Both the position numbers and the translations under genes were made by a program. A stretch of 64,000 nucleotides of DNA from Blepharisma japonicum (lineage: Eukaryota; Ciliophora; Heterotrichea; Heterotrichida; Blepharismidae). Below the pieces are notes generated by a model, which saw nothing but the letters and a program-made list of their open reading frames with translations, was not told the origin of the DNA and did not search any database. Every line of letters begins with the position of its first letter. Position 1 is the stretch's first letter. Shown piece by piece: positions 50,368 to 56,203 of this stretch. Where the stretch lies: the NCBI GenBank assembly GCA_949751835.1, contig CATKHK010000045.1, positions 186,001 to 250,000 of the forward strand. Reading direction: 5' to 3'.

Positions 50368-51912
50368 ATGGGGAAAAAGATCTTTAAAGTTCACAAAAGG
50401 AGACTTATTTTTTTTATGAAGCCTAGCCCAGAGGCTACCAAACTTAAAAAGCTTGTATATGATCATGGAGGAATCTTGTACAAAGCAAATCGAAAACCAG
50501 AGTATATAGCTTTAGCACCTTATGAAATTGACTACCTTCTTCCACAAAATCAAAAATACCCGGTTTATTCATTTCGATTCATATATGATTCAATAAGAGA
50601 ACGAAAGTTGCTGAATATTGATAACTATGAACTGCGAAGCTTAGTTAGGAAACGTCTTCAATATACAAGGGAAGATGAACAAAAAATGATAGAATATGTA
50701 AAGACAACAATTGGAAATCCAAATAATAAAGATTTTTGGACAGGACTTGCAGATATAGGTATAAATCATAGTAATGAAAGTTTGAGATACCATTGGAGAA
50801 ATATAATGACAGGAAGAGAGAAAGCTGAAGCAGAAAAAATATCAAGTAGAAACTTAAAAATTAAATATGATATTATAAAGCCAGATGAAGCTGAAACTCC
50901 TAAGAAATCACAGTCTCAATTTGCTTTAGAGAGCTTAAAAAGTGAGCAAAATTTTCTCGATGAAAATGATAATAGAACTCCTAGTTTAGCGAAATGCTTT
51001 GAAAATCAGTTTAAAAGAAAAAGAGATATATCAGTTGAGGGTGAGAAAAAGATAAGAGAAATCTATAGCAGTGAAAACGAATCCTCTAAAATTTCCAAAA
51101 GTAAATCTGTCACAAAAGAGCTACGCACCCAAAATACTCAGGATATTGGTCGCGAAGAACCTGAAAGGATACAGCAAAGCCAAAACAGAATTCCAGGCAT
51201 TATATTAGATTCAAAAACTGAAAGAAATGATGAAATAGAAAGTATTTCAGTAACTCCAATCGCAAATAAGATTAGCCAAACTATTTTGTTTCACAGTTCA
51301 AATCAAGAAATTCAGATGCAAGAAAAATCCCAAATTATATGGCAGAAACCTGTTGAAAAGGAGAATATTCATCCAAATAAAAGCATCGAAAATCCAAGAA
51401 CTGAGAAAAAGGACTTTCATTCTTCCATACCTCTCCAGAGTTTAGCTTCAGAAGAGAAAATAAACCCTTATCCTGAAGAAAATCAAAGCAATAAAATTGA
51501 AATCAATAAAGCTATTCAGTCGGATTTGATGAGAAAAACATTTGAAAAAGCAAATATTCACCTTCCAACTTCAATTTTATACAATAGCCCACCAAAGATA
51601 AAAGAAACAGTCCAGTCTTATCAAATTCAGAAGGCAAGTGAGCAATATGATCTTCATGATATGTTTCCCAAAAAAGAGGACTTTCTTGTTACATTTAATA
51701 CTCACTCTCGAACGGTTCATGATTTGAGACCACTAAGACTTCTCTCAACTGATTACGACATAGATAATCAATTTTTAAAATTAGTAAAGTTGTGCCAAAA
51801 AATAAGCAAAAAACATCTCACTGAAAAAGAAGTAATTTCAGCGCTTGAATCTAAGGATGGGGTGGTCGCTGACACAGTTTCGTATTTTTTAGCTCAAAAA
51901 GTTGTTATGTAA
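50368..51912 (+). CDS. RAP1: RAP1 (TERF2IP)-like telomere protein
   Basis: 514 residues in one frame, no TGA. An N-terminal BRCT-like domain (about 10-90) carries FFMKPSPEATKLKKLVYDHG, closely parallel to the RAP1 sequence FYVRPSPAKRRLSTLILHGG. A Myb domain (about 95-150) has YTREDEQKMIEYVKTT and SLRYHWRNIM, with the W-x(n)-W helix layout of RAP1. A long disordered linker follows. The last ~50 residues (QFLKLVKLCQKISKKHLTEK, then EVISALESKDGVVADTVSYF) match the RAP1 C-terminal (RCT) domain. All three RAP1 domains are present in order. By family it binds a shelterin-type partner through RCT, or telomeric DNA through Myb. Tryptophan use is low and no intron is seen. Confidence 0.82.
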   Translation: MGKKIFKVHKRRLIFFMKPSPEATKLKKLVYDHGGILYKANRKPEYIALAPYEIDYLLPQNQKYPVYSFRFIYDSIRERKLLNIDNYELRSLVRKRLQYTREDEQKMIEYVKTTIGNPNNKDFWTGLADIGINHSNESLRYHWRNIMTGREKAEAEKISSRNLKIKYDIIKPDEAETPKKSQSQFALESLKSEQNFLDENDNRTPSLAKCFENQFKRKRDISVEGEKKIREIYSSENESSKISKSKSVTKELRTQNTQDIGREEPERIQQSQNRIPGIILDSKTERNDEIESISVTPIANKISQTILFHSSNQEIQMQEKSQIIWQKPVEKENIHPNKSIENPRTEKKDFHSSIPLQSLASEEKINPYPEENQSNKIEINKAIQSDLMRKTFEKANIHLPTSILYNSPPKIKETVQSYQIQKASEQYDLHDMFPKKEDFLVTFNTHSRTVHDLRPLRLLSTDYDIDNQFLKLVKLCQKISKKHLTEKEVISALESKDGVVADTVSYFLAQKVVM

Positions 51913-52108: not shown

Positions 52109-54205
52109 TTAATATCTTGGCCGATTAACTGAAAGCGAATTATAAAGTCTACAGTAGTTACATTGAGTATCTGATAAAAGATTACATCTCCCGCAACTGC
52201 AAACCCAAAACATTTTCAAACAGCTTTCACAAATAGTTGGAAAATCTATATCTTTTCTATTGCAAAATGGACAACAGCCATTATAGCTTGATTGCTCAAT
52301 CCTATTTTTGCAATAATTGCATAATCAATTCATTAGTATTTTATTGCATTTACAGCAAAATTTTATTTGATTTTGAGAAGCTGATTCTCAGCGATTATTA
52401 TAACCTTTTGTCCTTACTCTACAATCAAGGCAAATTTTCAAATTAGATGTCTGTTTTCCACATTTTTCACATCTATCAACAGAGTCTTCTTTTTTATTCC
52501 TACAATTTTTGCACATAGAAGCTCTTGAAGAGTTTGGAGTGGCACAATATTTGCATTTTCAATATTGATCTAACCTTGGATTTTTGCACCTGCTGCAGAT
52601 AGTTGAATTTATTGAATTTTCAGCGCTGCATATCATGCAGCTTCAAACATGTGGAGATGAAACATGCTCGAGCTTTTTTTGGTCGCAAGATTCGCAAATG
52701 GAGGAATTAATGTCATTTATAAAGGTGCAGCTTTTGCAAACTCAGCCAGTTTCTCCAGTCTTGAGAGAGCTGCATCTGCTGCAGAGACTTCAATTGATCT
52801 CATTTTCGCTTCCACATTTGCAAGTTCACTTTTTTTTTTCAGGAATTTGATATACAATTTGATTGGGAGGCTCCTGACTTATCGCACGTGTAATTGGGGT
52901 TGGTGTGGGCTCATGATTTATATTTGGTTCTTTTGATTCTTCTTCAAGTTCATCAAATAGGCAATTTCTTTCAAGCTCCAAAAGTTTTGAATTTGATAAC
53001 TCATAACTATCTCTTAAATTTGAGATTTCATAAAATAACCCTACAGGATATTGCTTTGAGTTTATCATATCTTCAATAAAATCTTCTCATCTTCCTTCAC
53101 CAATAATTGATTCTTTGTCATCATCACATTTATATCATTGATTTCTCCTTTTATTGCGAAAACAATATATATAGTGCCCAAGCCCATAAATTATCATGCT
53201 GTGAAGAGTATAGAATTGTCGATTTAAATTGGCATAAACTGATTCTACACTAATAGAACAAGATATACTTGTAATAACTTTCAAAATATCAAGTCTTTTC
53301 TGATAATACCCATTTCATACTAATTGAAATATCAAAAATTGCGGGCTTGTTCTCAATCTCAATTCCTTTGCTGAAGAATTATATCTACAATTTTCTCTAT
53401 CTCCAGCACATTTTTTAACAGCATTATCCCTTCATTGCGCTTTAATAAAATCTGCCAATCTAAATTTAAAGGGTATAATGCTAGAGTTTCTCGCAAAATT
53501 ATTGATTTCTTCCATATCAACCCTCATAAGAATACTCGAATCGATTTTTTTACTTTCTTCTAGTATATCATTGACATAAAACGGATGTGAAAAAGTGCAA
53601 TAATCCCATTGTGTAATACTTTCAGCTTGACAACCACAAATTAATTTTTCTTCAATTATAAAATCACATGCGAAATGTGAAGGACATTTTGGTTCACACA
53701 GAATATTTGAAGCATTCATGGAGTCGTTATGAATATAGGCACTGTGCATGGTATTTAATATTTCAATTAAAGCTTCCATGCTATCTGCTGACGAATTAAG
53801 CTTAAATTCGCCTGACTCAATATGTAGATTAGCAAAATTACTTCTAAGTTCGCTTGCATCAAAATTTACTCTGTTAGATTTTCTTGACATTTCATTAATT
53901 TCTTCAAAAATTTTCTTAAGGCCACAAAGAATGCATCAGTGGTTCCGATTTGAGGGGCAATGCAAACCACATCCTAAGATATTTTCTTTTATAGGTGTGA
54001 TATGCCATCTAAATAAGATTTACAATGCTTGCAGAGCTGCATTTAAAAAACAATTCATATCTCCAAGATTATTTTTAAAGCCTATTGATGCTTCGATATC
54101 TTTCTGAATTATAGTATCACCCAAGTGCTTTAATCATTGTCCACAATATTTTTGATGTTGATCGCCAGAAAAAATTGGTCTTTTGCAATAACAACAACTT
54201 TTCAT
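52109..54205 (-). CDS. USP deubiquitinase fused to a tandem zinc-finger array
   Basis: 693 residues after removing intron 54009-54023 (GTAAATCTTATTTAG). A USP catalytic domain fills about 40-375. The Cys box GFKNNLGDMNCFLNAALQ puts the catalytic Cys at 52; NHWCILCGLKKIFEEI follows; the His box YGLGHYIYCFR (His about 339) is followed by WYKCDDDK with the third catalytic residue. The Cys box resembles the USP53/54 and plant type (xxxNCFLN). From 455 to the end there are eight C2C2 fingers. Five fit the RanBP2/NZF pattern W-x-C-x1-2-C-x3-N-x6-C-x2-C, and the second (WVCKSCTFINDINSSICESC) has the Thr-Phe pair of ubiquitin-binding NZFs. Four of the five signature Trp are TGA. By family it removes ubiquitin; the finger array may choose chain type or substrate. 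Intact open frame. Confidence 0.9.
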
Positions 54206-54418: not shown

Positions 54419-54844
54419 TTACTTTACTAACTGTAGCTGCTGAGAGAGAATATTATTTCTTCCTTCCCAATTTGCTCCAATAACCCATTCATTTCTGATT
54501 CGTTGGGGCATACCCATAAACTCAACAAAAAATTGGCTATTTGTTGCACAGTCAGTTCTGACGAGATCTTGCAAATATCGTTCCAAATCTTCCTTTCTTT
54601 TATTTATTTCTTCTGGTTTCAATTTTTTGAACACTTGCTTCCAGATCAGTTGTCCAGGAAAGTGAGGAAGTGGCTTGCTTAAAACCCTTCTCATGAGTTT
54701 CATAACTTGATGGAGTTCTAACAGCTCAGAATATCTTTTCTCTATAGTGTTTCGTCATTCTCCGAATACGATCTCTATAGTGTAGAGAATATAATTTTTA
54801 TTCCCAACTTTTGCTTCTCTAAACCCTGGAATACTTATTTCCAT
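54419..54844 (-). CDS. Single-domain PX protein
   Basis: 141 residues. The whole protein is a PX domain: FREAKVGNKNYILYTIEIVF, then RYSELLELHQVM, the LPHFPGQLIWKQ proline loop and the RKEDLERYLQDLV helix. One in-frame TGA encodes Trp in FGEWRNTIEKRYSE, so a standard-code reading would cut off the first 40 residues. By family it binds phosphoinositides, usually PI3P on endosomes. There is no other domain. The RYSE arginine that contacts the 3-phosphate is present. Confidence 0.9.
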
Positions 54845-55674
54845 TAATATATTTGTAATTTATGTCCCTATTAGATTGTATCAATTTTTTGAATTTGCTG
54901 GTTTCATATTGATCCATTTTGATCAACACCATTTAGTTGTTTATTTGATTAACTTAAATTCCTAATATGTGGCTATCTAATATTTATAAGTAAATAAGAT
55001 TATTCTATAAATTAAATTTTATTTATGAGTTATTTATAATTTAAGGATAAAATAGTTACCCTCAATTGTTTTGATTATTAAGAGTTTCTCATCTTATGTG
55101 AAAAATGCTTTCATTTTACACCAAGAGTGTTAGGTTCAATGATTTTCAATAAATTAAAATTAAAAACATTGAAGATTAGAAGTCTTATCAAGTTCATGCC
55201 AAGATTAAGTAAAATATCTTTAGAATTATCCTCTGTAGTTAAGTTGAGACAAGTACCATTGCATCTTTATTTTATCTGAGAATCTAGCTCGGCAAATTTA
55301 GTAACTTGAGCAATTAAGAACTGATATTATGTGATATATTGTAGTTTACCCTTGACTTATTTAGAGTCAAAATAATTTTCTATCTTCGAGTACTTTAATG
55401 GAATTTTTATTTTGATCCTTTAGCGAATTAAAGATAAAGATTTTACATATCAACTTTTGCAAATGCATTCCAAGCATTACTCCGCAACAATGAAAATTAT
55501 CAATTAGCATAAATTATGAGCTATATTTATATTTATGGACACTAGCATCTTTTAATTATTAGTAGTTTCTTAAATGTTGCGATAATTCTGTTAAGTCTTG
55601 CGTAAATATTTTATGTAATCGATAGCTAACAATCAAAAATAATCAATCGAGTCCCATTGCAGTATAAATGAGAA
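54845..55674. other. 830-bp divergent intergenic region
   Basis: Between the PX gene and the PRL phosphatase, which point away from each other. TAA/TAG occur in all frames at about the density expected for A+T-rich DNA. A short inverted repeat lies at 54909-54926 (TTGATC, 6-nt loop, GATCAA). No gene or RNA recognised. Confidence 0.55.
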
Positions 55675-56203
55675 ATGATTAACAAACCTTCATTGATTTC
55701 GAGCGGAGGCTTAAAATTTATTGTGATGGATGCACCTTCCGACGAAAATGCAGAAATTTATGCTGAAGAACTAGAACATTTAGGAGTGGTTCATTTAGCT
55801 AGAACATGTGAGGGAATGTACGATGATAGAGTTTTCGAAGAGCGAGGAATTGAAATCCATGTAAGAAACTAAGTAGAAATTGAATTTTACTGATGGATCA
55901 GCTCCTCCTAAAGCAGTAATACTCAAGTGGCTCAGTCTGGTAAAGAACACATTTTTTGAGAATGGAAAAATTAAGGTCACACAAGGAAAATCGCCATGCA
56001 TAGCCGTACATTGTCTGGCTGGGCTGGGAAGGGCTCCTGTGTTAGTAGCTATCGCTCTGATCGAAGCTGGTTTGGATCCGAATCACGCAGTTAGTCTAAT
56101 CAGAAAACATAGGCAAGGAGCCCTTAATTTTTATCAGATAAAATTCCTCAACTCTTACAAAAAAATTGGTGTCTATAGACCATCCTGCTGTGTGCTTCTA
56201 TAA
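55675..56203 (+). CDS. PTP4A: PRL-type (PTP4A) prenylated protein phosphatase
   Basis: 170 residues after removing intron 55861-55876 (GTAAGAAACTAAGTAG). Exon 1 opens MINKPSLISSGGLKFIVMDA. The catalytic P-loop is HCLAGLGRAPVLVA, the CX5R motif with the Ala-Pro that typifies PRLs. The C-terminus RPSCCVLL ends in CVLL, a CAAX box with Leu at X, so geranylgeranylation rather than farnesylation is likely. Family members bind CNNM magnesium transporters or dephosphorylate phospholipids at the plasma membrane and endosomes. Length (~170) fits the family. Confidence 0.93.

Follow-up and report, generated by a model that had tools for sequence, protein, structure and literature searches.

Human USP53 and USP54 stood annotated as inactive until their activity was reported in 2024. 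As far as the available text of Wendrich et al. (PMC12037411) goes, these two enzymes are the only human USPs with the elongated Cys loop, replacement of the loop by LGNTC abolishes cleavage, and in USP54 the loop is held by Arg100. According to the same text, USP53 and USP54 have a second zinc site in the thumb that other human USPs lack, H132 of USP53 is tied to the zinc sites, an S2 site within the catalytic domain takes part in recognising K63 chains, and F161K (USP54) or Y160K (USP53) disrupts the function of this S2 site. As described in excerpts of two articles (PMC4386640, PMC4386031), the Thr-Phe/Tyr dipeptide (the T-F/Phi rule) is needed for the binding of the NZF fingers of TRABID, where the change of T-Y to L-V in NZF1 abolishes binding, and a hydrophilic Gln at the third contact of TAB2 goes without mono-ubiquitin binding while K63 chains are still bound.

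Here, we analyse a gene of the ciliate Blepharisma japonicum that encodes a USP domain followed by an array of zinc fingers. The gene lies in a window of 64,000 nucleotides (the whole stretch of DNA under study, C45:186001-250000), and the searches within the organism's own genome were run on its 224-contig, 45.2-Mb assembly.

Results

Gene structure

The frame running from 54205 to 52109 on the minus strand is open only when TGA is read as Trp, and it holds a single in-frame TAA (codon 62). This stop falls inside a 15-nt GT..AG stretch (54023..54009) whose excision restores ...LNAALQALWHI..., and among the 14-17-nt GT..AG stretches listed for the gene no other contains an in-frame stop. The resulting gene model reads as follows:

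52109..54205, minus strand: whole gene, TGA read as Trp; spliced product of 693 amino acids; stop codon TAA at 52109-52111
54024..54205, minus strand: exon 1, codons 1-60 and two bases of codon 61
54009..54023, minus strand: 15-nt intron GTAAATCTTATTTAG, splicing predicted from the sequence
52109..54008, minus strand: exon 2

A paralog (C23, see below) carries a 15-nt intron at the identical codon and in the identical phase. Both the 15-nt intron and the reading of TGA as Trp fit Blepharisma, since the available text on Blepharisma stoltei (PMC9942806) gives UGA as a Trp codon and describes tiny introns, predominantly of 15 and 16 bp.

Three neighbours were noted within the window. The product of the gene at 50368-51912 (plus strand) begins with a BRCT domain, and its Myb-like stretch and C-terminal region may resemble those of RAP1/TERF2IP. 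A PX-domain protein is encoded at 54419-54859 (minus strand), and a tyrosine-phosphatase-like protein, which we take to resemble the PRL phosphatases and which ends in CVLL (a possible prenylation signal), at 55877-56203 (plus strand).

Catalytic domain

Pfam UCH (PF00443) matched residues 45-373 with 76.2 bits (cut-off 23.9; E 4e-21). The initial annotation had named Cys52 and His339 as catalytic, and both are present in the spliced numbering together with Asp357, so that the triad is intact in the alignment with USP54:

53015..54097, minus strand: USP53/54-type catalytic domain, residues about 37-392 (Pfam UCH; best PDB match USP54, 8c61)
54050..54052, minus strand: predicted catalytic Cys52, after the elongated Cys loop NLGDMN with oxyanion Asn45 (alignment with USP54)
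53174..53176, minus strand: predicted catalytic His339 (alignment with USP54)
53120..53122, minus strand: predicted catalytic Asp357 (alignment with USP54)

When the PDB was searched with the window protein alone, USP54 (8c61) ranked first (E 3e-13), and a profile built from five members of the family, C23 being excluded, scored 146.9 bits against USP54 and 49.5 bits against the next chain, yeast Ubp6. Identity between the window domain and USP54 is 24%. Asn45 aligns with the oxyanion Asn35 of USP54, and the spacing between this Asn and the catalytic Cys is 6 residues, as in USP54 (N35, C42), compared with 4 in yeast Ubp6 and 5 in paralog C24. Arg116 is the equivalent of USP54 Arg100, a residue that C65, C78 and C24 share and that C27 and C23 have lost. 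H149, C169 and H172 align with the thumb His/Cys residues. Equivalents of USP54 H133, C150 and H153 occur in all six paralogs, and another Cys lies one residue off C145; column for column USP54 C69, C145 and C164 are unmatched, with a Cys nearby for C69 and C145. Blocking loop 2 is short, as in USP54, and is aligned with it free of gaps in the profile alignment.

At the column of the S2-site aromatic (Phe161 in USP54, Tyr160 in USP53) the window protein has Glu180, and its paralogs have H (C65 and C78), L (C24), C (C27) and K (C23), a comparison that concerns one column of a divergent alignment. Judged by its sequence, the window domain belongs to the USP53/54 type, because it has the elongated Cys loop, the oxyanion Asn, the Arg100 partner, the thumb His/Cys residues and the triad, and it does so without the S2 key residue. 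Two scans for viral and prokaryotic relatives of the catalytic domain gave 44 and 195 pattern matches, none of which was confirmed.

Genome-wide, 143 UCH matches were recorded, many of them close together (32 on C107, 20 on C46, 5 on C170). Two USP genes in L052 (C107:62800-67500), one of them cut by the locus edge, encode a USP domain preceded by a hydrophobic stretch at the N terminus, and both carry an identical 15-nt GT..AG stretch at an in-frame TAG. These contigs possibly harbour a large array of membrane-anchored USPs.

A family of finger-USPs and a pseudo-DUB

A search of the genome with the whole protein recovered, on other contigs, four paralogs with fingers (C65, C78, C24, C23) and one without (C27). 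In another search, C56 gave an additional UCH match of distant kind (E 2e-4). USP and finger halves thus occur together and in the same order in five of the six members, and C65, C78 and C24 have them in one ORF free of TAA and TAG. The initial annotation had placed USP and finger array in a single gene, which is borne out by the 693-amino-acid spliced frame with both halves. It had also stated that no USP with this order was known; four more are now found in the same genome, and the statement holds as far as the best matches in the open-licence literature go, among which no description of a USP with RanBP2/NZF fingers was found. Being present in five genes of one genome, the predicted USP-finger fusion is real and inherited.

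In a tree that includes USP54, the five finger-USPs group together to the exclusion of C27 and USP54 (ultrafast bootstrap 99), and the window gene pairs with C23 (support 72). The triad of C23 is replaced throughout (Cys to Ala, His to Ser, Asp to Gly), while its spliced frame of 865 amino acids (L026 1486-4125) retains the thumb H, C and H and the fingertip Cys. We consider C23, going by these residues, a natural pseudo-DUB with a finger array, in which the Phe of the second finger is replaced too and most zinc residues are kept. The simplest reading of the family is that the array was gained once and then duplicated, one copy later becoming a pseudoenzyme; alternatively, C27 may have lost its fingers.

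The finger array

The initial annotation counted five RanBP2/NZF fingers and three other C2C2 fingers, and this count holds: RanBP2-like fingers start at residues 455, 483, 516, 544 and 662, and three C4 fingers accompany them. A C2HC motif at residues 4-21 had been overlooked; similar motifs are seen by eye in C24 and C23, a weaker one in C65 and none in C78.

54143..54196, minus strand: putative N-terminal C2HC finger, residues 4-21, C-x2-C-x9-H-x3-C (from sequence; no Pfam match)
52772..52828, minus strand: finger 1 (F1), C-x-C RanBP2-like, residues 455-473 (pattern; aligned in five finger-USPs and four U-box-family copies)
52685..52744, minus strand: finger 2 (F2), NZF, Thr489-Phe490, Ser501 at the third contact, residues 483-502 (pattern; PDB matches)
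52586..52645, minus strand: finger 3 (F3), RanBP2-like, residues 516-535 (pattern; best Pfam RanBP stretch 516-540)
52502..52561, minus strand: finger 4 (F4), RanBP2-like, residues 544-563 (pattern)
52421..52471, minus strand: C4 finger, residues about 574-590 (limits by eye)
52310..52357, minus strand: C4 finger, residues about 612-627 (from sequence; limits by eye)
52220..52273, minus strand: C4 finger, residues about 640-657 (limits by eye)
52151..52207, minus strand: last RanBP2-like finger, C-x-C type, residues 662-680 (pattern)

Residues 449-693 contain seven matches to W/F/Y-x-C-x1-2-C...C-x2-C; over 5000 composition shuffles the count averaged 0.06 and never exceeded 3. Counted without overlap, the five finger-bearing proteins hold 36 pattern matches (6 in the window protein, 14 in C65, 5 each in C78 and C24, 6 in C23), a count outside which most C4 fingers fall. 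The domain search for zf-RanBP proposed by the initial annotation succeeded in part: C65 passes the cut-off of 27 with 28.5 bits, but the window protein (16.9) and C23 (18.6) stay below it, and C78 and C24 have no Pfam RanBP match at E<=1. With TGA read as stop, the genome-wide Pfam RanBP search returned 8 matches, none on the contigs of the five finger-USPs; as the conserved Trp is often encoded by TGA, such genome-wide finger counts are lower bounds. Structure prediction from the single sequence gave models of low confidence, with a pLDDT of 41 for the finger array and 58 for F1-F2, and Foldseek with the predicted model returned one match (E 9.9); none of our conclusions draws on these models. 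Serotonin-receptor chains matching residues 489-556 in the whole-protein phmmer search (best E 0.0036) were taken as chance matches.

F2 (CTFINDINSSICESC) fits W-x-C-x2-C-x(10)-C-x2-C and carries Thr489-Phe490. In the PDB its best 13 rows are chains of HOIP, HOIL-1, NPL4, TAB3 and TAB2 (E 2e-4 to 0.05), with YAF2, ZRANB2 (E 0.08) and Nup153 ranking below these ubiquitin-binding NZFs; the same search with F1 gave no significant match (best E 0.61). A Thr-Phe/Tyr dipeptide occurs in 4 of the 36 pattern-matched fingers, always in F2 and always in a protein with an intact triad (TF, TY, TF and TF in the window protein, C65, C78 and C24, with Ser, Met, Val and Ile as third contacts). The pseudo-DUB C23 has Thr-Ala, an association of triad loss with dipeptide change that amounts to a single event. 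The window F2 has Ser501 where a hydrophobic third contact would be expected 10 residues on. The earlier proposal of at least one finger of ubiquitin-binding type with a Thr-Phe pair is thus upheld, and F2 is likely a ubiquitin reader of NZF type.

The initial annotation had further seen in the C-x-C starts of the first and last RanBP2 fingers a hint of internal duplication, which the comparison did not support: outside Cys/Trp the two are 14% identical in the window protein, and F1 and last fingers average 16% across the paralogs, compared with 18% between F1 and window fingers 2-4 (a weak test, with 14 positions and last fingers averaging 17% identity among themselves). Within the window protein F1 is closest to F3 (43% identity outside Cys/Trp), and the F1-F3 and F1-F2/F3-F4 resemblances, on very short sequences, give hints of a different, local duplication. 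The C-x-C start itself is old, as F1 has it in all five finger-USPs and the last finger in three.

RBR-like ligases that end in NZF-like fingers with Thr-Phe/Tyr were also noted, as was a HECT-like protein with such fingers (L001 on C68, L003 on C9, L005 on C10; ligase classes by eye).

A finger pair shared with U-box proteins

A search of the genome with the F1-F2 pair of C78 gave 12 matches at E<=1, of which ten reach E<=0.011: the five finger-USPs and five places of a U-box family (C117, C212 twice, C189 and C165). The remaining two are weak (C23:371507, E 0.06; C212:6043, E 0.13), and the places of RanBP2 fingers found by Pfam on C68, C44, C9, C10, C84 and C18 are not among the matches. 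Since these searches read TGA as stop, the list is a lower bound. The U-box genes on C189 and at C212:4081-5487 are open, with U-box (E 3e-16 and 2e-16) and DUSP (E 2e-10 and 9e-11) matches above the Pfam cut-offs and a RanBP finger below its own (17 and 24 bits vs 27). Of the remaining copies, that on C117 is partial, and that on C165 and the second one on C212 are spread over more than one frame or interrupted by stops.

When nine pairs were aligned, omitting C165, the window pair showed 39-50% identity to the eight others, the linker K-x-G-x2-G-W was found in seven of the nine, and F1 was invariant at its Trp, its four Cys, an Asn and the Lys following the finger. Outside Cys/Trp, F1 of the USPs and F1 of the U-box proteins share a mean identity of 25% (43% between the window protein and C117). 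In shuffles that left Cys and Trp in place, the window pair scored z 5.4 against the C189 U-box pair (none of 2000 shuffles as high), and two other finger pairs scored z 2.3-2.4 against this U-box pair (29/2000 and 44/2000). The window F1-F2 reached z 5.0 against its own F3-F4 (0/2000 shuffles), so a resemblance of this size between pairs does not by itself establish a special link with the U-box family. The F2 dipeptide of that family is Asn-Leu or Ser-Leu (C189, C212) and Lys-Tyr in C117, and the usual mode of binding to the Ile44 patch may therefore not apply to these fingers. To judge from the residues, this speaks against a shared ubiquitin reader in its simplest form.

The U-box proteins on C189 (L028 895-2328) and C212 (L029 4072-5550) end in a C-terminal DUSP domain, whose usual home is in USPs. 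Their stretch after F2, the DUSP included, is 55% identical to a stretch of C35 near a UCH match, and for this reason the E3-like U-box family seems to be built with USP parts.

Discussion

We think it rather probable that the window gene encodes an active cysteine deubiquitinase of USP53/USP54 type, which a C-terminal NZF would help to engage chains and whose finger array was most simply gained once and then duplicated. In such an enzyme the elongated Cys loop and the short blocking loop 2 would favour the cutting of chains over that of mono-ubiquitin. F2 has the Thr-Phe residues by which an NZF would bind the Ile44 patch of a further ubiquitin, and it may thus supply the extra chain contact for which human USP53/54 use the S2 site on the USP fingers; the key aromatic of that S2 site has been replaced in the window protein. 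F1 and F2 would act as one unit, and the remaining fingers, which vary from paralog to paralog, likely serve for the docking of proteins. Counting against this reading are Ser501 at the third contact of F2, the Pfam RanBP score below the cut-off, the low identity of 24% to USP54, the unmatched columns of USP54 C69, C145 and C164, and the single alignment column behind the S2 comparison.

An alternative of rather low probability holds that F1-F2 is mainly a docking module for a partner common to finger-USPs and the U-box family, by which the DUB would be targeted to a complex, the ubiquitin binding of F2 being secondary or absent. That F1, which has no Thr-Phe, is also conserved (Trp, four Cys, Asn and Lys in nine sequences) speaks for it, and so do the U-box pairs, kept with Asn-Leu, Ser-Leu or Lys-Tyr where TRABID NZF1 loses binding on the change of T-Y to L-V; yet all four triad-intact finger-USPs keep Thr-Phe/Tyr, and the top PDB matches of F2 are ubiquitin binders. 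This last ranking also counts against fingers that bind RNA in the RanBP2 style of ZRANB2 and bring the DUB to ribonucleoproteins. The N-F-x2-R pattern marks RNA binding in ZRANB2-type RanBP2 fingers. The fold class is shared, ZRANB2 is among the weaker PDB matches of F2 (E 0.08), and fingers of the GDWNC...NFSFR pattern do occur elsewhere in the genome (C44, C84), but by eye N-F-x2-R is absent from the 36 finger matches, the nearest being N-F-P-T-K in the last match of C23, and we regard RNA binding as quite improbable.

Of nearly the same low standing, though a shade less remote, is the view that the window protein is itself a pseudo-DUB that binds ubiquitin without cutting it. Its sister C23 (72% support, same intron position) lacks all three triad residues, and USP53/54 themselves were at one time annotated as inactive, but Cys52, His339, Asp357, Asn45 and Arg116 are all present in the window protein. 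Two separate genes, or an annotation artefact, would be an extremely improbable explanation of the fusion: the in-frame TAA has indeed to be spliced out, yet it lies inside the catalytic domain, nearly 400 codons upstream of the first finger, and four paralogs on other contigs, three of them stop-free, repeat the same order of halves. The initial annotation had named separate transcripts of the two halves as what would refute it; checked against these paralogs, such transcripts appear very unlikely, because the halves stay together in five of six family members and in one ORF in C65, C78 and C24.

The presence of the F1-F2 pair in predicted ubiquitin-attaching proteins hints at a targeting module common to writer and eraser. 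We advance, as a speculation that is less likely to be right than wrong by some distance, a matched writer-eraser system in which erasers of USP53/54 type and U-box/DUSP writers would share the F1-F2 reader and address the same ubiquitin mark or site, the module of the eraser would replace the lost chain sensing of S2, and the sister pseudo-DUB would compete for docking. If the sharing does mean co-targeting, it would be a simple way to pair writer with eraser. Returning to the active deubiquitinase that we prefer, a distant USP53/54 relative without the S2 key residue but with an NZF array would offer a test of whether chain sensing can move out of the catalytic domain to an appended reader, with the sister pseudo-DUB C23 as a natural control.

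Comparison with known systems

F2 resembles the NZFs of HOIP (RNF31), HOIL-1 (RBCK1), NPL4, TAB2 and TAB3 in its sequence and its Thr-Phe pair; unlike them, it has a C-x-C partner in finger 1 and a Ser at the third contact. Within the same genome, the U-box/F1-F2/DUSP proteins (C189, C212) share the two-finger unit and its linker, but an N-terminal U-box and a C-terminal DUSP replace the USP, and their F2 has Asn-Leu or Ser-Leu.

The catalytic fold of TRABID (ZRANB1) is OTU and not USP. TRABID is likewise a deubiquitinase with tandem NZFs (three in number) and would be similar in the outline of its working, whereas its NZFs are N-terminal and, in the available text, their linkers measure at least 28-35 amino acids, compared with 9 between F1 and F2 of the window protein (PMC4386640, PMC4386031).

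For the catalytic domain, the closest system is that of human USP54 and USP53 (PDB 8c61; PMC12037411), which have in common with the window protein the elongated Cys loop, the oxyanion Asn, the Arg100 partner, blocking loop 2, the thumb His/Cys residues and the triad. They differ in that Phe161/Tyr160 is not conserved in the window protein and in that a finger array follows its catalytic domain, none being mentioned for USP53/54 in the available text of that article. In their working the two would be alike, a weak S1 site being joined by an extra site for the chain.
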